Origin: an uncultured Oleispira sp.
GTDB taxonomy: Bacteria > Pseudomonadota > Gammaproteobacteria > Pseudomonadales > Oceanobacteraceae
Assembly (NCBI GenBank): GCA_913019965.1
Contig: CAJVZR010000001.1
Span: 62,001 to 126,000, forward strand
DNA length: 64,000 bases
Direction of reading: 5' to 3'
The translations under genes and the position numbers were made by a program. Every line of letters begins with the position of its first letter. Position 1 is the stretch's first letter. Shown here one piece after another: positions 15,215-30,082 of the stretch. The notes under the pieces were generated by a model. It did no database searches. It worked only from the letters and a program-made list of their open reading frames with translations, and was not told where the DNA came from.

Positions 15215-15367
15215 AGCACCTCCTGATGATAGATAAAAATTTCCATTGTTAAATCTTCGTTATCACATTAATACGACAGATGTCACGTTACTCTCATTAT
15301 ATGCTATAAAATATGAAACAAGAGTTTATATAGTGCTCCTATCCAGGCGTCAATCTAAAGGAAACGT

Positions 15368-16042
15368 ATGAGTATATTGTTAGTTGAAGATGATCTTGAT
15401 CTCGCGGCTACCGTCACAGAATACCTCAATGACTCGGGCTTTATCGTCGACCATGCCTTCCACGGCGAATCGGCCTTAAACCTAGCCAGCCAAAGGGAAT
15501 ACGACATCATAATACTTGATGTGATGCTGCCAAGACTCAATGGCTTTGAGGTTTGCCAAAGGTTACGTAACGAGCAGGTATATCAAGGCCCTATTCTCTT
15601 TCTAACCGCAATGGATACTCTCGATTTCAAAATACAAGGGTTTAATTCCGGCTGTGATGATTATCTTGTAAAACCTTTTGAGTTGCCTGAACTTGAATGC
15701 CGTTTACATGCATTATCAAAGCGCGGGCGACGTATGGACAGTCGAAATATCATCTTTGGCGAGCTCGTCATCAATGCCGGGGAAAAACGCGTATTCCGAA
15801 ACGACCAAGAAATAGCTTTGAATAAAAATCAGTTTAATTTGTTATGTGAACTGGTTAAGCAAGCACCAAACCCTGTCAGTCGAGAATCACTATCACAAAT
15901 AATTTGGCAAGATGAAGAGCCTGACAGTGATTCGTTACGTAGCCATATCTATCGCTTACGCAACTTAATTGATAAACCCTTTGACTTCAATATGATCGAA
16001 ACCGTCCACCGAATTGGTTTGAGAATTCGTGACCATGTTTAA
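15368..16042 (+). CDS. OmpR-family response regulator
   Basis: REC 'ILLVEDDLDLAATV…IILDVMLPRLNG…KPFELPEL' plus winged-helix DNA-binding domain. Confidence 0.93.
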   Translation: MSILLVEDDLDLAATVTEYLNDSGFIVDHAFHGESALNLASQREYDIIILDVMLPRLNGFEVCQRLRNEQVYQGPILFLTAMDTLDFKIQGFNSGCDDYLVKPFELPELECRLHALSKRGRRMDSRNIIFGELVINAGEKRVFRNDQEIALNKNQFNLLCELVKQAPNPVSRESLSQIIWQDEEPDSDSLRSHIYRLRNLIDKPFDFNMIETVHRIGLRIRDHV

Positions 16043-17234
16043 TAGCCTACGTAATAAGCTGATTATTGCCATGATCAGTTACACCGTTTTTATTGCCGTT
16101 TTCTCTGCGGCCATTTTTTATCGTGGACTATACGCCTCTGAAAACTCCTATTTAAATAGTATCGTAAACTCATATTTTGAATACATTTCTCAGCACCCCT
16201 TACCTGAAACGTTACCCTATAATATTGATATCAATACCCAGTTATTTTTACTTGATAGTCCTGAGCTACCCAGTTTCATTAAACAAACGACCCCAGGTCT
16301 TTATGAAATACAACAAGAAGAAATTCACTATCGCATAGGATTGCACCCTAATGGCCAAATGATCGTCATTATCTTACAAGACATGCTTAAAATGCTTGAT
16401 CAACAAGAAGAACGCCTTGAAGCAATTATCACAAGCATCGTACTAATTACCATACTCGTAGGCAGCATTCTTGTTAGCTATTTGGTTACGCTGCTAATGA
16501 GAAGATTATTAGAATTATCTAACGATGTCGAAACAGCCATTAATCAAAACCTGATTATCCCTGATGCGATTCCTACAGCACCTATTGATGATGCGCATAA
16601 AGACGAAATTGATACCTTACGCGAGGCTTTCTCTCAATACAGCCAACAATTGCTTGATCATGCTGAGCGAGAAAAATATTTTACCCAACATGCCAGCCAT
16701 GAATTAAGAACTCCGATAGCTATTATTCGAAATTGCTTCCATATCCTGATGAAAAGTCCGCTTAATGAACAGCAAAAGAACAACGTTATTCGGATTGGGA
16801 AAGCGGCGGATAAAGCCAAAAATCTCACCGACTGTTTTTTATTACTCGCCCGTCATCATTCCAAGGAATTGGAACTCGTTGACATCGAAATAATATTACT
16901 GGACGTAATCAAAGGTCAAAATACGCTACTGGTCGCGAATGATTTAAAACTAACAGTCACGTCGATGCCTGTCGCTTTATCTTGTCACCCTGCTATGTTT
17001 GATATTTTATGCTCCAACCTTATTGGCAACGCAGTCAAGTATGGTCATGACAATGTTAATATTTGCCTAACGGATCATTCATTAACCATTAAAAACCTAG
17101 CAACCCAAGAGCCAAAAATTCAAGGGTTTGGGTTAATCATCTGTCAGAGAGTATGCAATTATCTAGACTGGAGCATTCATCATGATTACAAGGATCAATT
17201 ATTTTCAACCACCATTCACTTTAATAATCATTAA
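16029..17234 (+). CDS. Sensor histidine kinase partner of the upstream OmpR-family regulator
   Basis: Overlaps upstream RR by 14 bp; two TM segments; H-box 'HASHELRTPIAIIRN'; C-terminal ATPase region. Confidence 0.9.
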   Translation: MTMFNSLRNKLIIAMISYTVFIAVFSAAIFYRGLYASENSYLNSIVNSYFEYISQHPLPETLPYNIDINTQLFLLDSPELPSFIKQTTPGLYEIQQEEIHYRIGLHPNGQMIVIILQDMLKMLDQQEERLEAIITSIVLITILVGSILVSYLVTLLMRRLLELSNDVETAINQNLIIPDAIPTAPIDDAHKDEIDTLREAFSQYSQQLLDHAEREKYFTQHASHELRTPIAIIRNCFHILMKSPLNEQQKNNVIRIGKAADKAKNLTDCFLLLARHHSKELELVDIEIILLDVIKGQNTLLVANDLKLTVTSMPVALSCHPAMFDILCSNLIGNAVKYGHDNVNICLTDHSLTIKNLATQEPKIQGFGLIICQRVCNYLDWSIHHDYKDQLFSTTIHFNNH

Positions 17235-18072: not shown

Positions 18073-18356
18073 CTTACTTTTAATCGAGCTAGACCCGAGA
18101 TCCCATCATAAGCCCCCTAATACTAGTATAGACGTATTAACAATCTCCTTCTAATCAGTAAGCTCGCAAACTGTCTGCTAATATTTCCTAGCATCCCCAG
18201 TTATTACAATAATCATTTAAATTAAGCTTCTTTTAGGCCCAATAGTCAGGATATCGTAGAAATACCCCATTGAAGATGTGGAAAACCCTACTTCGTCACA
18301 AGCCTATCACCCTCACTTGATTAAATTAGATGCTCATTCAGAATTTAATCATCATT

Positions 18357-19565
18357 ATGAAAAATATAACGAAGAGTAAACTTATCGGTATAGTTATCAC
18401 ATCCAGCCTATTTTCTGGCTGCGGAGGCGGAACAGGCGATGGAGGCAATGCTTTTCAACTGTTCTCTCCACTCCCCAATAACATAGCCACCCCGATCAAT
18501 AATCCATCCACTACTGAAAAGAACACATTAGGCCAATTATTATTTTGGGACCCCATTTTATCAGGTAATCAAGATGTCGCTTGTGCAACCTGCCACCACC
18601 CCGCCAAAGGCTACGCCGATGCACTGATACTCTCACAAGGAGTCGGAGGTATGGGACTTGGAGAAGATCGAATAGGTGGCAGCCTTGCGAAGCGCAACGC
18701 TCCAACTATTTTAAATACAGCCTTTAATGGCATACATAATCAAGGCCCACATGTCCCAGAACAAGCTCCGATGTTTTGGGATAACCGTATTCGTAGCTTA
18801 GAACACCAAGCAAAGCTTCCCATACTCTCTCAAGAAGAAATGCGCGGCGAAGATATTGCCGAAGATCAAATAATGGCGATCGTTATTGAACGTCTAGAGG
18901 CGATCCCCGAATATAAGCAATTATTCCTTAATGCATTTGGAACCAGTGTCATTACAGAGACGTTAATATTCAAAGCAATCGCCAGTTTTGAACGCTCTTT
19001 AATCGCCAATAATAGCCGCTTTGATCAATTTCTAAAGGGCGATAGCAATGCTTTAACAGCAATCGAGCAAGAAGGCCTAGAGGAGTTTGTTGAGGTGGGT
19101 TGCGCCGAGTGTCATAGCGGCCCCATGCTATCGGATTACCAATTACACGTTATTGGCACCCCTGATTTGACCTTACCAAATGGAACTCTATTAACGGATA
19201 TGGGCGCTGGACAACTCGATTTCCGCACCCCGACTTTGCGTAACTTAAATCTAACCGGCCCTTATATGCATAATGGTATTTTTGAGACCCTTGAAGAAGT
19301 CGTGCAATTTTATCAGCAAGCTTCTCAGGGCGAAAATATTCACCCAAGCTTAAGCTTGCAAGATCTTGCACCACAAATCCAACAACTGGATATGGGTGAT
19401 GGTGATGGCGATGGCGATGGCGATGGTGATGGTGATGGTGATGGTGATGGTGAAGGAGGTAATAATGCCATCGTGAGTTTTCTTAAAAGCTTGCAGGATG
19501 ACCAGTTTGATAAGACCATTCCTGAAAGTGTACCGAGTGGCTTGCAACCCGGTGGAAATATCTAA
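18357..19565 (+). CDS. Di-heme cytochrome c peroxidase/MauG-like lipoprotein
   Basis: 'CATCHHPAKGYAD', 'CAECHSGPMLSD', 'FRTPTLRNLNLTGPYMHNG'; lipobox 'LFSGCGGG'; start moved to MKNITKSK. Confidence 0.88.
   Translation: MKNITKSKLIGIVITSSLFSGCGGGTGDGGNAFQLFSPLPNNIATPINNPSTTEKNTLGQLLFWDPILSGNQDVACATCHHPAKGYADALILSQGVGGMGLGEDRIGGSLAKRNAPTILNTAFNGIHNQGPHVPEQAPMFWDNRIRSLEHQAKLPILSQEEMRGEDIAEDQIMAIVIERLEAIPEYKQLFLNAFGTSVITETLIFKAIASFERSLIANNSRFDQFLKGDSNALTAIEQEGLEEFVEVGCAECHSGPMLSDYQLHVIGTPDLTLPNGTLLTDMGAGQLDFRTPTLRNLNLTGPYMHNGIFETLEEVVQFYQQASQGENIHPSLSLQDLAPQIQQLDMGDGDGDGDGDGDGDGDGDGEGGNNAIVSFLKSLQDDQFDKTIPESVPSGLQPGGNI
19395..19454 (+). repeat. GGYGAT hexanucleotide microsatellite encoding (Gly-Asp)n
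   Basis: Nine consecutive GGT/GGC-GAT units followed by GGTGAA, inside the CCP/MauG-like CDS. Confidence 0.95.
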
Positions 19566-19652: not shown

Positions 19653-21674
19653 CTAAAAGTTATAGGCCAAATTCATATTAACACTTCGTCCTTCCTCATA
19701 ATACTTAGAAGGCTCTTCATCAGCATAATAACGATTAGCATACGCTCTATCCGTTAAGTTTGTGATACTCACATTCATGGCTAAGTTTTCAGTACTTTGC
19801 GGTTGATAATTAAAGTGTAAATCCACTGTTGTCCAAGCAGCCGTTGTTTGATCATGCTTTTCAGGTAAAGTCCCATACTGAGAAGGTTCTCCACGGCCCT
19901 CAGCAAACCAACCATAAGCCGGCACGCGAGTCAGCGCCAAGGCATGATTAACAACGATCTGAGACGTTAGGTTATCTTGTAAACTCCATTGTGCACTGAA
20001 ACGGAATTTGTCAGACGGCATATCAAACAAGTATTCTTTGTTTTTCGTATCAAAACCAACCGTTTGTGCAAAAGAGGCATCCAGCGCTAAAGCACCATTT
20101 ACATAGTGATCAGATAATTCAAAACCATGAATACGCACAGAGTCTAGGTTTTTATACGAGCCGTCCTTATAATCAGGATTGCTGTACTCTTTGCCAATGT
20201 AGTTTTTCAACTCATTATCAAACACATTCAATTTCACACTGTTTTGGCCATTTTTAAACAAGCCAGACTGAGCCCAGACGAGACCGACTTCCTTGTTTTG
20301 TGCTTGTACTGGTTTAAGGCCCGGATTTGGTTCAAAGCCTTTCCCACTCACATAAAGCTCACTTAATCGTGGGGCAACGAGAGCCTCACTGTAAGAAACA
20401 TGAGTCGTAAGTCCTTCTAACGGCTGCCAGCTAATTCGTAAACCTTTCGATAATTGCGTTTTACTGCTGGCATTACGCCCAACAGGATTGCCATCTACAT
20501 CCACCGCATCATCGGATTGCATTGAGACTTGGTCAAATCGTAAACTGGGTAAAACAGATAGATTGTCTGTTACAGCAAAATCATATAACGCAAATAGCGC
20601 CGACGTTTTCAACTTACCTTGCGGCTCTTTCGTCGGATCGGTACCCACTACGCCATCCTCGGTGAATTCCTGTACTTTGGGTTCAATACTGTCTTCATAA
20701 TATTCAATACCATAGCTTGCAACACCTCTCGAAATTGATGAGAAGTTGGTCAAACTTAAGCCTTTTGTTAAATGAATATCTTCTGTGATACCACCACTTT
20801 CAGTATCGGTCACTTTATGATTACTTTTGTTTTGATATAACCGTGCTTGTAGGTCTAGCCACTTTGATTTGGACTGCCAATCATATCCAAGCACAAGATT
20901 ATTCGCGAAGCGTTCTCTCGTTTCTGTATCTAAGCGTGTGCGCTTATCGGTACCCGAAGTACTGGAATGACTTAAAAATAGTTTTTGCTCAGGGGTCAGC
21001 TGATAGCCAATTTTTGTTAAGCTACTGCTATTATGCATTTCAGATGATGGGCTCTCTACTCCTTCACCAACATTCAGATTTTGTGTCGTAGTACGCGCGC
21101 CACTTACCAGCGCATCCCACTTACCTTGCGCGGTAAACAAAGATAAACTCGCATTCTCTGCACCGTTATTGCTGCGGCTGCCTAACTGAATTTGCCCGCC
21201 CATATTTTTCCCAGGCTGTAATAAGTCCGCCGCAGACTTAGTCTCCATACGTATCAAGCCTGCACCTGCGCCACTGGACGCACCACGAACAACATCCACT
21301 TGCTTTAATAAATTCATCGGCTGAGTAAAACTGCCTGATTTAGTCGCATTAAAGTTATGGCGAGCCCCATCAATGGTGATAGCGATATACTGTCGGTCTA
21401 AACCTCGAATCGTAATATTTCGTGACATGGGGTTATTACTGTCCCCCGCAATATCAATATTTGGCATATTTTTCAACGCATCCGGTAACCACATAACCTC
21501 GTTACGATTTAATTCACTCATATCTAATGTATCGATAGATTGCAGTGACTCATAACTATTTGAAGAGCCTATAACAGTAACGGTTTCTAATTCAGGACGT
21601 GAAGTTTCTTCTGCAGTAACAAGGTAGGAAATACTAGCGAGGTTGATGGCTAATGCCAAAGGGATAAGTTTCAT
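19653..21674 (-). CDS. TonB-dependent outer-membrane receptor
   Basis: Plug domain 'LPDALKNMPNIDIAGDSNNPMSRNITIRGLDRQYIAITIDGARHNF'; β-barrel ending in aromatic 'NLAYNF'; start moved to MKLIPLALAINLA. Confidence 0.92.
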   Translation of the reverse strand: MKLIPLALAINLASISYLVTAEETSRPELETVTVIGSSNSYESLQSIDTLDMSELNRNEVMWLPDALKNMPNIDIAGDSNNPMSRNITIRGLDRQYIAITIDGARHNFNATKSGSFTQPMNLLKQVDVVRGASSGAGAGLIRMETKSAADLLQPGKNMGGQIQLGSRSNNGAENASLSLFTAQGKWDALVSGARTTTQNLNVGEGVESPSSEMHNSSSLTKIGYQLTPEQKLFLSHSSTSGTDKRTRLDTETRERFANNLVLGYDWQSKSKWLDLQARLYQNKSNHKVTDTESGGITEDIHLTKGLSLTNFSSISRGVASYGIEYYEDSIEPKVQEFTEDGVVGTDPTKEPQGKLKTSALFALYDFAVTDNLSVLPSLRFDQVSMQSDDAVDVDGNPVGRNASSKTQLSKGLRISWQPLEGLTTHVSYSEALVAPRLSELYVSGKGFEPNPGLKPVQAQNKEVGLVWAQSGLFKNGQNSVKLNVFDNELKNYIGKEYSNPDYKDGSYKNLDSVRIHGFELSDHYVNGALALDASFAQTVGFDTKNKEYLFDMPSDKFRFSAQWSLQDNLTSQIVVNHALALTRVPAYGWFAEGRGEPSQYGTLPEKHDQTTAAWTTVDLHFNYQPQSTENLAMNVSITNLTDRAYANRYYADEEPSKYYEEGRSVNMNLAYNF

Positions 21675-21704
21675 AAATAACAAAATCTCTGCTTGAATGT
21701 AAAG

Positions 21705-21723
21705 AAGAATCATTATCATTTAA
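21705..21723 (-). promoter_or_regulatory. Fur-like box at the TonB receptor promoter
   Basis: Minus strand TTAAATGATAATGATTCTT; 13/19 to GATAATGATAATCATTATC by hand alignment. Confidence 0.55.
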
Positions 21724-21728
21724 GCAGA

Positions 21729-21745
21729 GTGATAGAAATGTGATA
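21729..21745. promoter_or_regulatory. Direct repeat operator GTGATAgaaatGTGATA
   Basis: Exact GTGATA-N5-GTGATA, 55-71 bp upstream of the TonB receptor start; same motif at 27827, 28849 and 28937. Confidence 0.7.
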
Positions 21746-21767
21746 CTTAAATATTAAGCGTTAAATA

Positions 21768-22601
21768 TCAGTTACTTTTAATATCAAAGGTCAAGAAGCG
21801 CTCTTGAGATAAGTAGTCTGCGTCGCCTTTTCCTGACAAGGTACTTTCTAATTCAACACCTAATAAATAACGCCCTGGGTGCTTAACTTCAAATTCATAA
21901 ATACCGCCTTTCGCTTCTTCGATTTCAACTTCTTCATAATCATCATAATAAATGCGGTTTAAGCTTTTAAGCGCCACCTCACCCTTCTCCATTGGCACAC
22001 CATCAACATAGATAGTAAAGCTGAAAGGCTCATTGGTCTCAATTTTAGAAGGATGCGTATTCGGGATAATCGTTACGCCTTCTTTACGGATTTCTTTTGA
22101 AATTTCACTGATACCATTAAAACTTATATAACTTTCTGAAGCTAAACGCTTCTCGACCGTTTTCTCAATTGTTATACCTTTAGGCAAGGTTGAGTATTGG
22201 CTTTTCGGCATACGAACTTTATGCTCTTTCCCCTCTTCATCTTCATAGAAGGTTAAAAAAACTTGCGTCTCAGTAGCGTTCAAATAATAAGTACCGTACT
22301 CTTTGAATTCAGCTTCATATACTTCTTTATTTTTACCAGGAAATGCCGCTGTATATTCTTTATTCTGTCCTTTTGGTCCGACGATATTCATACGGCCGGT
22401 GTTATGATTTGATTCCGCTAAAAAAGGTTCGGCTGATCGAGATAAATCGATTGAGAAAGTATTTTGTTCATCACTATGAATCTCAAAAGCCCCCATACCA
22501 ATCCAAACATCATGAGCCACCGCTGGCAACGCTAGACCCAGACCTAACGCAGAGACAAGACCCGCTTTCAAACCGAGCACTGATACTTTTTTGCTATTCA
22601 T
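21768..22601 (-). CDS. DUF4198-type periplasmic protein
   Basis: 'AVAHDVWIGMGAFEI' after signal peptide; late 'PFSFTIYVDGVPMEKGEVAL…KHPGRYLLGVE' typical of DUF4198 proteins beside TonB receptors. Confidence 0.75.
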   Translation of the reverse strand: MNSKKVSVLGLKAGLVSALGLGLALPAVAHDVWIGMGAFEIHSDEQNTFSIDLSRSAEPFLAESNHNTGRMNIVGPKGQNKEYTAAFPGKNKEVYEAEFKEYGTYYLNATETQVFLTFYEDEEGKEHKVRMPKSQYSTLPKGITIEKTVEKRLASESYISFNGISEISKEIRKEGVTIIPNTHPSKIETNEPFSFTIYVDGVPMEKGEVALKSLNRIYYDDYEEVEIEEAKGGIYEFEVKHPGRYLLGVELESTLSGKGDADYLSQERFLTFDIKSN

Positions 22602-22659
22602 TTTCTTTTCCTTTTTTCATTTCAATGGTTTAACTGAGTAATATCGATTATTCTATTTT

Positions 22660-23649
22660 CTAATGCATTAAACAAAACTGATTAATTTCTTTTTTCCCTT
22701 CAACGCATGCTTTGCCATCTACCGTCAAAGAGTCCAATGAAAGAATTTCCCGCTCCCCTTTTTCACGCGATACTTCAAGATAAAAAACAATATCTGACAA
22801 GCCCTCACCGGGAAAAAGTGAAACATCAATTTGGCGACTAAATAAACCTGCCTTTCGCGTCGCACCTGAGTGAGCATCAACAAGTGATCGATCCTCTCTG
22901 GCTATTTTTCGCCAGTATGTTTTTAGATCTTTTACCCACTTATAACCCTCAATTAAAACAAAGTGGGTTTTGTATTCGTTGGCACTATTCTTACTGAATA
23001 CAGCGATGTAAGGATTTTCAGTCTTTGTTTCAAACTGACGAATATCAACCAGGGTTTCAAGACTTAAATTTTTGATAGTGACAGCCTCTTCACTATAAGC
23101 CTTTGGCACCACCACAATTAACAGCAAGAGTAACAACCCGCCAAGGGTTAAAACTGTAATGTTTTGGTTCTTTTTCTTAAGGTTTTTCACACTGATCCAC
23201 ACTCCGGTAAGGCACATTAATAAAGTAAAAAAAATAAAAATATCAGCGGCTATCGTCCAAACAATATGAACATGACGGTTTTTATGTAAATCATTGAGTG
23301 TCGCAATAAAGCCATACTGAATCGTTTCAATTTCAACCATGTCACTTTCAATATTGATAACTTTTCGCCAGCCAGGACCTGACAATTCAAGTTCAGAAGT
23401 TTGAGTTAACGTCTCAAATCGAGAGTCTGAAAGTTGGATATCTTGTTGCTGTAAAATGTTAGGCAGTGCATCAATACTCGAAGTTTCTTGCTCGTAAATA
23501 GAGATGGAAGCCTTTTGTTCGAACCATGATGGGTGATTCAAAAAGAAACCCGTGATTAAATAAAAGCATAAAAGAAAGCAGAATATTAACGATAAGTAGC
23601 TGTGAATTTTTCTTATCGTTTTAGGTTTTAAATTGAGAATTGTTGCCAT
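22660..23649 (-). CDS. PepSY-associated TM domain protein
   Basis: 'RKIHSYLSLIFCFLLCFYLITGFFLNHPSWF', 'LNDLHKNRHVHIVWTIAADIFIFFTLLMCLTGVWI'. Confidence 0.8.
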   Translation of the reverse strand: MATILNLKPKTIRKIHSYLSLIFCFLLCFYLITGFFLNHPSWFEQKASISIYEQETSSIDALPNILQQQDIQLSDSRFETLTQTSELELSGPGWRKVINIESDMVEIETIQYGFIATLNDLHKNRHVHIVWTIAADIFIFFTLLMCLTGVWISVKNLKKKNQNITVLTLGGLLLLLLIVVVPKAYSEEAVTIKNLSLETLVDIRQFETKTENPYIAVFSKNSANEYKTHFVLIEGYKWVKDLKTYWRKIAREDRSLVDAHSGATRKAGLFSRQIDVSLFPGEGLSDIVFYLEVSREKGEREILSLDSLTVDGKACVEGKKEINQFCLMH

Positions 23650-23688
23650 GAATAAACCAGTACGTATCTATTTGTACGCATACTAGCG

Positions 23689-23720
23689 ACACCTTTGTGA
23701 CTTTCTTGTCACAAAGGTGT
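23689..23720. repeat. Perfect 13-bp inverted repeat (hairpin) between RND and PepSY genes
   Basis: ACACCTTTGTGAC tttctt GTCACAAAGGTGT; no T-run follows on the minus strand. Confidence 0.9.
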
Positions 23721-23726
23721 TGAACA

Positions 23727-26700
23727 TTACTTTTTACGCCAGTCCATGACAAAAGCATACAAAGAAGGCAATACTAATAAAGTGATGATTGACGAGAAGA
23801 CAATACCCCAGCCCATCACCAAGGCAATTGGCCCCATGTAATTATCATAACCTCCCCAGCCATACGCTAAAGGAATAAGTCCTGCGACCGTCGTAAGCGT
23901 TGTTAGCAAAACTGCGCGAAATCTAATCATCGCCCCAGATATCACAAAATCATCGACATCCTTGACAGCATCAATACTTTGCTTTTGGTAATGACACATT
24001 AAGACTAAGCAATTATTCACCATGACGCCTACCAGTCCGATAGAACCAACGATAGCAAAAAAGCTTAACGGTTCGTTGTGAACAAATAAAACCAAAGCAC
24101 AGGCCGCTACCCCTAACGGTACTATTAGCAAAACCAATACGCTGCGCCAAATAGAATCAAACAATAGAATCATAGTTAACATGATGGCTATCAAAGCGAT
24201 TCCCATTGCCATCGTTAAGCCACTCAATGCTTCCCTTGTTTCCTTTGCTTGTCCACTACTTACAAAACGCACACCCGAATAGTCTTTTGAAGAAAAATGC
24301 GCACGCATTGCATCATCAACTGCGATGGGGTCAGTCACTGACGATTCAATAGACGCTGATACTCGAATACTACGTTCACCGTTATAATGTTTAATAGCGG
24401 CTGGTGCTTCGCTTTGACTCCAGTTAACCAATTCACGTAATTGGATTAACTGGCCATTTGCTGCGCGCACCGTTAACTGTTCGAGTTCAGATAGTTCTCT
24501 GTCGTTACTTTCCAATAACAAGCGATAATGGACTTCTTCGTCACCCGCAAATACTCTACTGATTCGCTCCCCATCAATACTGAGTCTTAACGTCCGTGCA
24601 ATATCAAAGGTAGAAATGCCATAAGCTGCAATTAAGTCATAATCAATATCGACACTGATAATGGATTTCATTTCGGTAGATGCACGATTAACCCTATGCA
24701 CTCCAGGCTGCTGCTCAAGCCAACCTTTAATATCCGTCGCCATTTTATCTCGCATGGCGTCATCGCCTCCGACAACATTTAAATCTACTGGTCGTCCTTT
24801 CGGCGGGCCACCAGCATCAACCTCAAGCTCGATATCAACAAAGCCTTCAAGCTCTTCTACTGCTTGCTGCCAGCTTTGCAATACTTGCTCTGCATTAAGA
24901 CCTCTCTCTTTTGCCGGTTTAAGGCTCACTAAGAAAGAGCTATAAGGGGCACCAATGTCACTATACCAACGAACGACATTGTCTTTATCTGCAGCAATAA
25001 TATCCTCAAGCTGCTTATTTAGACGACGTGCATCATCAATATTGGCACTAGAGGCCACCTCGGTTTCTATTTCAATAATATAAGCTCCGCCTGTTGGGAA
25101 GAATGTATACGGCAGCTGCGTAAAAGCCCAAATCCCAACACTGAGGATAACAATAAACATTGCCGGCACGGTTTTATGGCGCTGCTTAACAAAGCCAGTT
25201 AATAGAACTTCAAACCTCACTGTTAGCGCTTGCATTAACTTAGAATTTTTCTCTTCTTTAAGCAATTGTTCACGTCTGCCTGCGAGTACAGAGCGTAAAT
25301 GTGAAGGCAAAACAAGAATGACATCGATGAACGAAAACAGGAGCGCCAAGCCAATGGTCAACGGCATAACATACAGCATCTTCCCACTATTGCCGGGCAA
25401 GAACATTAAAGGTAAAAACGCTAAGAAAGTCGTTAATAGGCTAGTAAAAACAGCCGGCATCACCTCTTTTATACCCTCTATGATAGCGCTATTGAGTTCT
25501 TCACCTGCTTCAAAGCGTTGCACAATTTTTTCTGAGACCACAACAGCATCATCAACGATAATCCCAATAATCAGAATCATCGCAGCCAGAGTATAGCCAT
25601 CTAAAACCTGCCCTAATGCCGGTAAAAGAGCAATCACGCCTAATAACGAGAAAGGTATCGATAATGCGACCCAGATTGAAACGTTTCGGTTCAACATCAG
25701 AGCAAGGGTTAAAATAACCAAGATCAGGCCCACTAAACCATTATTCTTGACGATATCGAACTTCGATTGAATTTCATCAGATAGATCAAAACCGACGACC
25801 AGCTCAACTTCTTTTATATTCTCGCCATATTGGCTCAGCAAATTTCTTACATCAGCAGCGGTATTTATCACATCCGCAGAATCAGACGTTCTTAAATCAA
25901 AGGCAATGACATGATGCCCATTAATATTGGCATAGCTTTGTGGACGCTCGAACCCAGATATAATATCTTCGGCGAGATCCTCCAGCTTCAATAAAGGCTG
26001 AGAACTTAGAATAATATTTTGCAAACCCTCGATGTCTTTAACTTCGGATAGAGTTAATACATCCTGCGCCGTTTTATAGGACTCAAGGCTTCCTCCTGTC
26101 ATTAAAACATTGCGCTGCTGAATTAAACTCGCAACTTCTGTTATGGTAAAACCATAACGTTCCAACTGTTCAGGCTCTAACTGAATCCAAAACTCTCGTG
26201 CCCGCATGTCCTTACTGATAACTTCGCCGATTCCAGGCAGTCGACGCAAACTAACCTCCAGCGCTCTTGCATGTTGACGCAACTCAGCATACGGCATATC
26301 ACCGCTAATACCGACGACCATAAAATCTAAACTGGATGATTTTTTCGTTCTCACAGAAGGTAATTGAGTAACCCCTGCTGGTAAATCTGATACTCTTGCG
26401 ACGGCATCTCGTATATCTTGATACGATTTTGCAACATCATTAATATCCGACTTGAGTTCAATACTGATTTCTGACTGCCCTTCCTCTGAGACCGAAGAGA
26501 ACTTTTTAATATCTGATAAAGTCAGTAATTCTTTTTCAATTCGACTAGTAACATTCGCTTCCACATCTTCCGCTGATGCCCCTGGATATTGAGTCACAAT
26601 ATCGGCCTTGCCTAAATCAACTCTAGGCAATTCAGCAAGCGGCAACGAGCTAATAGCATACAGACCCAATACTAATACCGCTGTTGTTAAAACATTGGCG

Positions 26701-26741
26701 ACCATCGAGCGATTTAATATGAACTCATATAACTTATTCAT
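23727..26741 (-). CDS. RND efflux transporter, inner-membrane subunit
   Basis: 1004 aa; 'GIIVDDAVVVSEKI', 'PLAELPRVDLGKADIVTQYPGASAEDVEANVTSRIE' AcrB/MexF-like motifs. Confidence 0.95.
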   Translation of the reverse strand: MNKLYEFILNRSMVANVLTTAVLVLGLYAISSLPLAELPRVDLGKADIVTQYPGASAEDVEANVTSRIEKELLTLSDIKKFSSVSEEGQSEISIELKSDINDVAKSYQDIRDAVARVSDLPAGVTQLPSVRTKKSSSLDFMVVGISGDMPYAELRQHARALEVSLRRLPGIGEVISKDMRAREFWIQLEPEQLERYGFTITEVASLIQQRNVLMTGGSLESYKTAQDVLTLSEVKDIEGLQNIILSSQPLLKLEDLAEDIISGFERPQSYANINGHHVIAFDLRTSDSADVINTAADVRNLLSQYGENIKEVELVVGFDLSDEIQSKFDIVKNNGLVGLILVILTLALMLNRNVSIWVALSIPFSLLGVIALLPALGQVLDGYTLAAMILIIGIIVDDAVVVSEKIVQRFEAGEELNSAIIEGIKEVMPAVFTSLLTTFLAFLPLMFLPGNSGKMLYVMPLTIGLALLFSFIDVILVLPSHLRSVLAGRREQLLKEEKNSKLMQALTVRFEVLLTGFVKQRHKTVPAMFIVILSVGIWAFTQLPYTFFPTGGAYIIEIETEVASSANIDDARRLNKQLEDIIAADKDNVVRWYSDIGAPYSSFLVSLKPAKERGLNAEQVLQSWQQAVEELEGFVDIELEVDAGGPPKGRPVDLNVVGGDDAMRDKMATDIKGWLEQQPGVHRVNRASTEMKSIISVDIDYDLIAAYGISTFDIARTLRLSIDGERISRVFAGDEEVHYRLLLESNDRELSELEQLTVRAANGQLIQLRELVNWSQSEAPAAIKHYNGERSIRVSASIESSVTDPIAVDDAMRAHFSSKDYSGVRFVSSGQAKETREALSGLTMAMGIALIAIMLTMILLFDSIWRSVLVLLIVPLGVAACALVLFVHNEPLSFFAIVGSIGLVGVMVNNCLVLMCHYQKQSIDAVKDVDDFVISGAMIRFRAVLLTTLTTVAGLIPLAYGWGGYDNYMGPIALVMGWGIVFSSIITLLVLPSLYAFVMDWRKK

Positions 26742-26742
26742 A

Positions 26743-27537
26743 TTATTCTCCTACGAGCTTCTGCTCAGCATCAGACAAACGAATACGTGCAGTAAAACCT
26801 GGGCGTAATTTAAAATCGCTATTCTCTAATATTGCTTCAACTCGATAACCTGGTTTAATCGTTGATGGTTGAGGGGCGATATGCGCAACCCTTGCCGAGA
26901 AATTAACATCATCGATAGCGGGAATAGTAACATTCACGATATCAAGCACATTAATTTGGGCTAAGTCATTCTCTAACAGATAAAAAACCACCTTTAGCTT
27001 GCTCATATCAACTAAGTCAAACATCATCGTCGATGTACTCAGTAGTTGGCCTTTTTCAATATGGCGTGCTCCCACCCAAGCATCAAACGGTGCAATAACG
27101 TTTGTTTTCTTCAATACGTTTTTGCTTAGTTCTAACTTAGCTTTAGCAACAGCCAGCTGCCCTTGACTGACTTCAAATAACTTTTCGCTTTCATCAAGCT
27201 GGCTTACTGAAGCATTCCCTTTATCATAAAGATCCTTAATACGTATCAATTGGCGTTCATTAGCCTTAAATTCTGCTTGGCTTAAAATAAATTCTGACTC
27301 GGCCAACTTGTACTGCAACTGATAACTTTCACTATCTAAATTGGCTAATACATCTCCCTGTTTAATTACGTCGCCGATATTGACTTTCACACTTTCCACC
27401 AGTGCAGTCACTTCATTACTAATCTGACTCGCCTTTATCGGCTCTAGAATACCAACCACCGTATTATCCCCATATGAAGTAGCTGAAGATAAAATGATTC
27501 CCATGGCATATAAGTAGCTTTTCGAATTATTCATCAA
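26743..27537 (-). CDS. RND periplasmic adaptor (membrane fusion protein)
   Basis: Biotinyl-lipoyl-like 'VESVKVNIGDVIKQGDVLANLDSESYQLQ', 'NVIAPFDAWVGARHIEKGQLLS'. Confidence 0.92.
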   Translation of the reverse strand: MMNNSKSYLYAMGIILSSATSYGDNTVVGILEPIKASQISNEVTALVESVKVNIGDVIKQGDVLANLDSESYQLQYKLAESEFILSQAEFKANERQLIRIKDLYDKGNASVSQLDESEKLFEVSQGQLAVAKAKLELSKNVLKKTNVIAPFDAWVGARHIEKGQLLSTSTMMFDLVDMSKLKVVFYLLENDLAQINVLDIVNVTIPAIDDVNFSARVAHIAPQPSTIKPGYRVEAILENSDFKLRPGFTARIRLSDAEQKLVGE

Positions 27538-27781
27538 TAGCTCCTACCTTCTGAGTAGAGTGTGATAACAATTTTAAATAAGAACAAATTTTCGTAATCA
27601 GAGGTGTCACTAGTACTGCACTTGGAAAAGCAACAATAAATGCTTTAGGCCAGGTCTGAAGCCAAAGGAATAACAAATTCTCAGTTAGGCCGTTGGCAAT
27701 TATTAATAACTGAACTGACATTAGCCCAGACATAAACAAGGCCATAAAAAAGGGGAAGTAAAAGCGTTCTAAAATTTTCAT
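27527..27781 (-). CDS. DUF2798-like small membrane protein
   Basis: 84 aa, 2 TM, 'PFFMALFMSGLMSVQLLIIANG…WPKAFIVAFPSAVLVTPL'; overlaps the adaptor gene by 11 bp. Confidence 0.75.
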   Translation of the reverse strand: MKILERFYFPFFMALFMSGLMSVQLLIIANGLTENLLFLWLQTWPKAFIVAFPSAVLVTPLITKICSYLKLLSHSTQKVGAIDE

Positions 27782-27816
27782 ATTGCTACCTTAGAAATAG
27801 TGAGTCTCTAAGGTAG

Positions 27817-27843
27817 CGCGACATACGTGATAGCTGTGTGATA
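27817..27843. promoter_or_regulatory. Direct repeat operator CGCGACATAcGTGATAgctgtGTGATA
   Basis: GTGATA-N5-GTGATA at 27827-27843 with 9-bp 5' extension CGCGACATA; 46-62 bp upstream of the DUF2798 start. Confidence 0.7.
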
Positions 27844-27855
27844 TTTGATCGATTA

Positions 27856-28800
27856 TTACATTGATTTTAGCGATGCTAAATAAGCCGCGATATTGACAAT
27901 GTCACTATCACTAAGAGGAGAAACTACAGGCAACATCTCTGCCGATATGCGAGTTTTAGATTTAAAACCGTGTAATTGACGAACCGTATAACTGGCAAAA
28001 TTACCAACGATAGAAGGTATCAGACCACCGCCCGTTAGATCTGGCCCATGACAAACAGTACAAGGAGCGGTTTTGCCGCCACCTGTCGTTACTATGTTTT
28101 TACCTTTTGCAATAGCCCCTTTTGGCACGTAACTGATAAAGCGACTTACTGGAACTCTCAATTTTGTCTGCTCTAAGTCCTCTGGAACTTCAATTATTCG
28201 CCCGTTAATCGACTCAACTCCAGCAGGCACAGCCACGGTACGCATTCGCGTATCATCTATGACAGTCAAGGGTACCGCATCAGTTTCAACGACATCCAAA
28301 AAGTCCTGACGTTTCAAGCTTGCAAACCACACCGCAGCCTCTTTTCTTTCTTCCATAGTCATTACTTCAGCCATACGGTTCATATGACCAGAGTAATCCA
28401 AGCGACTACCCGATGAAAAATCTTCCAATTGTCGTTCGATATAAGACGCAGACAGACCGGCTAATGAGGCCGATTCGGGGTGACCCAAGCCTGAAGCTAA
28501 ATGACAAGACGCACAAGCCCATACCTTAGGCTTTTTCCCATGCTTAACAATATCAGGCATTGCCGCGTGGTCACCTTCATTCCAGTCCGGAGCGTTGAAT
28601 TTATCATCGATTGCCTGCTGAGAGTATTGCTTATTACTACCCGCTATTCTCCATAACTTCGTCATATCTTGCTCTTGATCAATCTCCGAACCACGAGTTG
28701 GCGTTGACCATAACGGCGCACCTGCAATCACATTATCGGCTTGAGCTAAAAGCGCATTAAGACAGCCTATGGACAAAGTAAGCGCAATTAATATTTTCAT
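27856..28800 (-). CDS. Diheme cytochrome c (c4-like)
   Basis: Two heme motifs 'CASCHLASGLGHPES' and 'CTVCHGPDLTGGGLIPSIVG'; signal peptide. Confidence 0.88.
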   Translation of the reverse strand: MKILIALTLSIGCLNALLAQADNVIAGAPLWSTPTRGSEIDQEQDMTKLWRIAGSNKQYSQQAIDDKFNAPDWNEGDHAAMPDIVKHGKKPKVWACASCHLASGLGHPESASLAGLSASYIERQLEDFSSGSRLDYSGHMNRMAEVMTMEERKEAAVWFASLKRQDFLDVVETDAVPLTVIDDTRMRTVAVPAGVESINGRIIEVPEDLEQTKLRVPVSRFISYVPKGAIAKGKNIVTTGGGKTAPCTVCHGPDLTGGGLIPSIVGNFASYTVRQLHGFKSKTRISAEMLPVVSPLSDSDIVNIAAYLASLKSM

Positions 28801-28838
28801 TTTTTAAATACCTTTCATTAAACCTGCAACCAAAATAA

Positions 28839-28865
28839 CGCGACATAAGTGATATTTAGGTGATA
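28839..28865. promoter_or_regulatory. Direct repeat operator CGCGACATAaGTGATAtttagGTGATA
   Basis: GTGATA-N5-GTGATA at 28849-28865 with identical 9-bp extension; 49-65 bp upstream of the cytochrome c start. Confidence 0.7.
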
Positions 28866-28936
28866 TCGCTTAATCATGCTTCGGCTTGGTAGCGATTATT
28901 TAAAAGGAAAATTATTTAGATTATATTTTTAACGGT

Positions 28937-28953
28937 GTGATAAGAATGTGATA
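28937..28953. promoter_or_regulatory. Direct repeat operator GTGATAagaatGTGATA
   Basis: Fourth GTGATA-N5-GTGATA, in the divergent intergenic region near the AraC-family gene. Confidence 0.65.
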
Positions 28954-29065: not shown

Positions 29066-30082
29066 ATGAATCATCAACCTACCGTCATCGCCAGCTATGT
29101 AAAAACGTTAACCAAATCCCTAATAGACCTAAATATCAAACATGACACTATAGTACCTCTTGCTTGGAGTTCAGCCAGTACGGATAGCAGAATTCCATTA
29201 TCCCAGATTAATACATTTTGGCATTCTCTTGTTTCTCTCAACGCTGACAAAAGCCTTGGATTAAAAGTCGCTCTTAACATTCATAACAATAGCTTCCATC
29301 AACTTGGGCTATTGGCCCAACAATGTAAAAACCTCGAAGAAGCATGGAAAATGGCCACTCAATTTTATCGTTTGGTTTCCGAAGCAGGCACCTTGTCTTC
29401 AGAAATCACTGAAGAACATTTTGTGCTTACTTTCGAACCCTGCAAGATCGTTCCTGAACTAACCGTCCAACAAATGGAAGGGATGATGGGAGCTGTTTTT
29501 CAATATGCTTTAAGTATCATGGAAGGTGACTTTCAATTATATTCTGTAGAATTACAGCATCCTCCTACGTCGAATTCATCCCTTTACCACAAAGTATTTA
29601 AGTGTCCGATTATTTTCAATAGCCGCTATTATCGTCTGTATATCCCAAAGAGCGAATTAATAAAGCCCATTCCTCTGGCCTCTGAATCAATGAGAAAGTT
29701 GCATTTATCGGTTACTCAGAATAAACAGTTAGAATATGAGAATTTGAGACGGCCTGAAGGCGATCTACATTTTAAAATCTATGAGTTGCTACGAATTAGT
29801 TTACCCGAGAAGATTCCGACGTTAGATGAATGTGCTACAAACTTTCATACTTCGGCGAGCACACTTAAAAGAAAGCTCAAAAAAAGTGGTATGTGCTACT
29901 CAGACATTATTAATCAAGTAAGAAAGGATATTGCATTTCAATTACTTAATGATCATCAATTATCCATTAATGACATTGTTTATCGTACTGGTTTTACTTG
30001 CTCAACTAATTTCTATAGATCCTTCAAAAAATGGTCGGACTTAACCCCAGTAGAATATCGTAAAAGTAGAGCTATTAATTGA
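29066..30082 (+). CDS. AraC-family transcriptional regulator (Arabinose_bd-type N-terminus)
   Basis: C-terminal HTH 'PTLDECATNFHTSASTLKRKLKKSGMCYSDIINQVRKDIAFQLLNDHQLSINDIVYRTGFTCSTNFYRSFKKWSDLTPVEYRK'; start moved from TTG 29015 to ATG. Confidence 0.92.
   Translation: MNHQPTVIASYVKTLTKSLIDLNIKHDTIVPLAWSSASTDSRIPLSQINTFWHSLVSLNADKSLGLKVALNIHNNSFHQLGLLAQQCKNLEEAWKMATQFYRLVSEAGTLSSEITEEHFVLTFEPCKIVPELTVQQMEGMMGAVFQYALSIMEGDFQLYSVELQHPPTSNSSLYHKVFKCPIIFNSRYYRLYIPKSELIKPIPLASESMRKLHLSVTQNKQLEYENLRRPEGDLHFKIYELLRISLPEKIPTLDECATNFHTSASTLKRKLKKSGMCYSDIINQVRKDIAFQLLNDHQLSINDIVYRTGFTCSTNFYRSFKKWSDLTPVEYRKSRAIN

Follow-up and report, generated by a model that had tools for sequence, protein, structure and literature searches.

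The hexamer pair GTGATA-N5-GTGATA stands four times in a 64,000-nucleotide stretch of DNA from an uncultured Oleispira sp. (the window). What does this repeat do, and which protein reads it? In the direction of the genes that follow, the box is TATCAC-N5-TATCAC. An initial annotation took it for the mark of a regulon controlled by an AraC-family protein. The genes of this island, together with the AraC-family gene beside it, are as follows:

15368..16042, plus strand: OmpR/PhoB-family response regulator (Response_reg + Trans_reg_C); preferred candidate binder of the box
16029..17234, plus strand: sensor histidine kinase (HisKA); its gene overlaps that of the regulator
18330..19565, plus strand: di-heme cytochrome c peroxidase (CCP)/MauG-like protein
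19653..21719, minus strand: TonB-dependent receptor, heme/hemoglobin type (TIGR01785 above cut-off)
21768-22601, minus strand: DUF4198 protein
22660-23649, minus strand: PepSY_TM-like/DUF2271 protein with a flavinylation-type SGAT motif
23727-26741, minus strand: RND permease
26743-27537, minus strand: RND periplasmic adaptor
27527-27781, minus strand: DUF2798 protein
27856..28800, minus strand: periplasmic cytochrome c with two CXXCH motifs
29066..30082, plus strand: AraC-family regulator whose N-terminal domain is PF12625 (Arabinose_bd); the rival candidate for binding the box, located beyond the outermost boxes

The regulator/kinase operon forms the left end of the island and the cytochrome c promoters form the right end; araC lies outside, divergent at the cluster edge as the initial annotation had it. 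Two DNA-binding proteins are recognised at the island: the response regulator and the AraC-family protein. Inside the MauG-like gene (19395-19453), about ten copies of the hexanucleotide GGTGAT encode a (GD)n tract; this repeat is in frame, so changes in its length keep the frame.

Rescanning the window recovers all four exact copies that had been reported:

21729..21745, minus strand: exact box; -10 GATAAT at 21717-21712; before the TonB heme/siderophore receptor gene
27817..27843, minus strand: exact box plus extension TATGTCGCG; -10 TACCTT at 27815-27810; before DUF2798 - RND adaptor - RND permease - PepSY/DUF2271 - DUF4198
28839..28865, minus strand: exact box plus extension TATGTCGCG; -10 TATTTT at 28837-28832; before the cytochrome c gene
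28937..28953, minus strand: exact box; perfect -10 TATAAT at 28925-28920; second, upstream cytochrome c promoter, facing away from araC

At each of the four sites the hexamers are identical, the spacer is 5 bp and the period is 11 bp. Spacers and flanks vary among the copies; hexamers, orientation and the spacing to the -10 are constant. The exact copies have no third hexamer in register, nor is there a further site in register some 21 bp off. All four lie wholly in non-coding DNA, which makes up 8.7% of the window, and 100 dinucleotide shuffles gave no exact box. The genome sequence is 94% complete and comprises 4,321,370 bases on 160 contigs. In it the exact box occurs at these four places only, all within the island, and the reversed control pattern does not occur; the motif is not scattered, which is the point for which the initial annotation had proposed a genome-wide scan. 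Boxes with one mismatch are found elsewhere in the genome at background level (15, vs 18 for the control). Across 392 genomes of the order the exact box occurs about 0.4 times per genome, which is also background; neighbouring exact-box hits in these genomes, among the matches listed, are tandem arrays with a repeated spacer. A search of Rfam matched nothing.

A -10-like hexamer lies exactly 11 bp behind each exact box (TATAAT, GATAAT, TATTTT and TACCTT). The mean -10 score is 4.26 at this spacing and -0.16 at the next best of the 23 spacings, and none of 20,000 random non-coding sets reaches the score seen at 11 bp. A2 and T6, the two best-conserved positions of the -10, are present behind 4/4 exact boxes vs 0/15 one-mismatch background sites (Fisher p = 2.6e-4). 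There is strong support for a small local regulon defined by the repeat, because the box is unique to the island genome-wide and keeps a fixed distance to -10-like elements; in this respect the initial annotation holds. That the repeat is real and regulatory can be said with high confidence. The cytochrome c gene has two boxed promoters 88 bp apart (28825-28953), the upstream one being that with the perfect TATAAT. Their predicted transcription starts are near 28825 and 28913.

The promoters also bear on where two of the genes begin. At the TonB receptor gene, the predicted transcription start (about 21705) is downstream of the longest-ORF start (21719) and upstream of the ATG at 21674, which opens a signal-peptide-like sequence. 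Since the predicted transcription start falls after 21719, the start codon is probably ATG 21674. The 55 bp first given between box and receptor gene needs this internal ATG as start; the distances given for DUF2798 (46 bp) and cytochrome c (49 bp) are correct as they stand. The MauG-like gene shows the same pattern (longest-ORF start 18330, predicted transcription start about 18334, internal start 18357) and probably starts at 18357, with a lipoprotein-like signal. Corrected start codons are thus suggested for both genes. A Fur-box-like sequence (21699-21723, minus strand; best 14/19) lies over the TonB receptor -10 and would be plausible for a heme/iron receptor; at 13-14/19 matches it is not significant, as the window holds 53 such hits.

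A 13-bp perfect inverted repeat precedes DUF2798 (27785-27817, minus strand; -18.6 kcal/mol, z = -5.3). The ribosome-binding AAGG lies in its right arm, and the predicted -10 in its left. In read-through RNA from cytochrome c, the ribosome site would be hidden by this structure; RNA begun at the local DUF2798 promoter (about 27803), without the left arm, could be translatable.

The extension TATGTCGCG (gene direction) stands directly behind the box. The initial annotation was right that the 27.8 and 28.8 kb copies share a 9-bp extension, CGCGACATA, with the same spacing in both. With up to 3 mismatches allowed, the 20-base extended pattern has exactly three matches in the genome, and the reversed control has none. 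Two are the DUF2798 and cytochrome c sites; the third precedes the response regulator/histidine kinase operon. It is given here with a degenerate copy of the plain box:

15261..15287, plus strand: degenerate extended box TATCACATTAATACGACagATGTCaCG with 3 mismatches in 20 fixed bases; -10-like TACTCT at 15289-15294; before the response regulator/histidine kinase operon
18294..18310, plus strand: degenerate box CGTCAC-N5-TATCAC with 2 mismatches; -10-like TAAATT at 18322-18327, at 11 bp; before the CCP/MauG-like gene

The site at 15261-15287 sits 81-107 bp before the regulator gene, and the next best match to the extended pattern in the window carries 5 mismatches. Two of its own mismatches fall in the second hexamer. 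Its -10, TACTCT, which would place the transcript start near 15301, is weak; a better-looking one, TATAAA, lies 16 bp further on. At the regulator operon the box could instead lie upstream of the -35, with a -10 located 44-50 bp from the box start; for cytochrome c and DUF2798 this arrangement was dismissed, since it would put the transcript start behind the ribosome-binding site. The 18294 box is tentative and could be of chance origin, since about half a non-coding site of equal quality is expected by chance in the window. Neither site was part of the initial annotation, nor was the -10-like hexamer at a fixed distance behind the copies.

Between box and -10, the element TGTCRCG is found only at the promoters of the regulator operon, cytochrome c and DUF2798-RND. 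It might conceivably be the site of a second regulator, perhaps the AraC protein. If so, a heme-uptake, electron-transfer and efflux island would be gated jointly by the two-component system and the AraC protein; the odds are clearly against this.

On the evidence of its sequence, the island from 15.3 to 28.9 kb is probably an autoregulated, island-private OmpR/PhoB-type regulon under the local response regulator. The geometry of the box favours this protein as the binder, because the hexamers are identical, the period is 11 bp, the orientation is always the same, the -10 lies at 11 bp and the regulator's own operon carries a site. We infer that the local regulator binds the box and that the effect is activation. 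TATCAC-N5-TATCAC would be the head-to-tail dimer site of the response regulator (15368-16042). Once the kinase (16029-17234) is activated, two phosphorylated regulator molecules would occupy the two hexamers, both on the same face of the DNA. The bound regulator would substitute for a good -35 and bring sigma-70 RNA polymerase to the -10 lying 11 bp downstream. Targets switched on in this way would be the regulator's own operon, cytochrome c via its two tandem promoters, the DUF2798-RND efflux-PepSY/DUF2271-DUF4198 genes, the TonB heme/siderophore receptor and possibly the MauG-like protein.

Boxes of the OmpR/PhoB family consist of two direct half-sites with an 11-bp period in a class II position (fixed orientation, some 10-12 bp before the -10, overlapping the -35), and it is common, though not universal, for the cognate regulator to be present with a site on its own operon. 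All of these features are found here, and the regulator in the window falls in the family that includes PmrA, KdpE and PhoP. The KdpE site is two 6-bp repeats with a 5-bp spacer (PMC3264566), PmrA hexamers are 5 bp apart (PMC3973317), and HP1043 has TTTAAG hexamers with a 5-bp spacer (PMC8345958). As in the PmrA (BasR) box and the KdpE site, the 6-bp direct repeats here would each take one winged-helix monomer; the hexamer and the target genes are different. BasR, one of the nearest relatives of known structure, is only distantly related to the regulator (122 bits). PhoB boxes precede a TAN3T -10 by 10 bp (PMC1906773); the Pho box shares with the present one its direct repeats, 11-bp period and approximate distance to the -10, and differs in repeat sequence, signal and targets. 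The Salmonella PhoP box of architecture I (mgtA, phoP, slyB) occurs in direct orientation only, 12 or 11 nt before the -10, and overlaps the -35 (PMC3335776). It has the same two hexamers with a 5-bp spacer, and the regulator's own operon is likewise boxed. However, the PhoP hexamer is (T/G)GTTTA and not TATCAC, and unlike the PhoP regulon, the one proposed here is limited to a single island and three of its sites add TGTCRCG between box and -10.

Pump loci in other genomes offer moderate support for the local regulator. The RND permease has relatives of 46-49% in three genomes of another family. In one of these, at locus L080, the pump genes diverge from a regulator/kinase pair belonging to the same subfamily; in two other genomes, at L095 and L096 (37% permeases), such a pair is directly upstream of the pump. 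The regulators at all three loci are reciprocal best hits of the one in the window. The support is only moderate because the subfamily is large (104/392 genomes of the order) and there are closer relatives that lack the pump linkage; as strong evidence the linkage was dropped, as most of the nearest 40 regulator relatives are not beside this type of pump. Upstream of 48 related regulators (40-51% identity, with no close orthologue among them) no common motif was found, despite a similar recognition helix. A TTAA signal of period 11 occurs in four of these loci, scattered, and there is also a CTGG signal. Related pump loci (L080:13120-13156; L081:8488-8500; L094) share CATTTTTTTCAC upstream of the adaptor gene, and at L080, where regulator and pump genes diverge, it lies between them as an inverted repeat; it is perhaps the own operator of these loci. 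Downstream of the pump locus in L081 (15041-18176) there are regular repeated ORF fragments (VHCRTGSLE / FLSCLCGSE) which resemble a CRISPR array.

It is improbable that the AraC-family protein (29066-30082) binds GTGATA-N5-GTGATA, with one helix-turn-helix unit per hexamer, and switches on the island along with its two-component operon. Its gene is local and divergent, two boxes are less than 220 bp from its start codon, and AraC-family proteins can overlap the -35. However, repeats of this family are spaced at about 21 bp, and no hexamer is in register at that distance from the boxes. MarA sets two helix-turn-helix units in successive major grooves at its A- and B-boxes, but in MarA/Rob sites these boxes differ in sequence and the A-box dominates binding (PMC8279559), whereas the hexamers here are identical at four sites. 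The boxes likewise depart from the AraC/XylS operator, which is about 17 bp long with two non-identical boxes and is often repeated some 21 bp away. The box nearest araC faces away from it, and the other end of the island is the response-regulator promoter. The related pump loci yielded no relative of the AraC protein. Footprinting with AraC orthologues yielded no near-full-length relative of >30% identity in 46 genomes of the family or in a genome-contig scan; the search also covered plasmids. The binder named in the initial annotation is therefore not supported: the geometry is of the OmpR/PhoB type, and the extended third site is on the operon of an OmpR/PhoB-family regulator.

There is a slim chance that the boxes are bound by a regulator encoded elsewhere in the genome, such as another OmpR/PhoB-family protein. 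About a dozen such proteins are present (12 matches including the local one), and the architecture of the box points to a family, not to one protein. Against this, all exact and extended sites in the genome are within 14 kb of the local regulator, whose own operon carries one, and one-mismatch sites elsewhere are only at background. That the repeats are non-regulatory, by chance or as copied or mobile sequence, is hardly credible: the extended portions of two copies are alike, and promoter duplication could yield such repeats, but spacers and flanks differ where hexamers, orientation and -10 spacing are constant, and shuffles give none.

The genes under the proposed response-regulator control are for iron/heme uptake, electron transfer and efflux. 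The SGAT motif has been reported as a flavinylation site (PMC8238504), and the PepSY/DUF2271 protein of the island is a probable flavin-based periplasmic iron reductase; no apbE is among the genes annotated in the window. Known iron-reduction clusters (PMC8238504, PMC7190382) similarly hold PepSY_TM + DUF2271 with SGAT, DUF4198 and a TonB receptor together; the window differs in that they are accompanied by c-type cytochromes, a two-component system and an RND pump. In Alteromonas and Caulobacter, iron limitation elicits a response from PepSY/DUF2271/DUF4198/TonB genes (PMC7190382, PMC12004947). Given this response and the nature of the target genes, iron or redox stress is a reasonable guess for the signal.

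A non-exhaustive comparison with the literature found no description of the TATCAC hexamer or of this combination of genes. Mechanisms of this kind are known; the present example is new and well delimited. An unannotated repeat becomes a testable map of binding site, promoter elements, transcript starts, members and probable regulator, and the proposed regulator shifts from the AraC protein to a two-component response regulator. An uncharacterised two-component system is thereby linked to heme/siderophore uptake, a probable iron reductase, c-type cytochromes and RND efflux.
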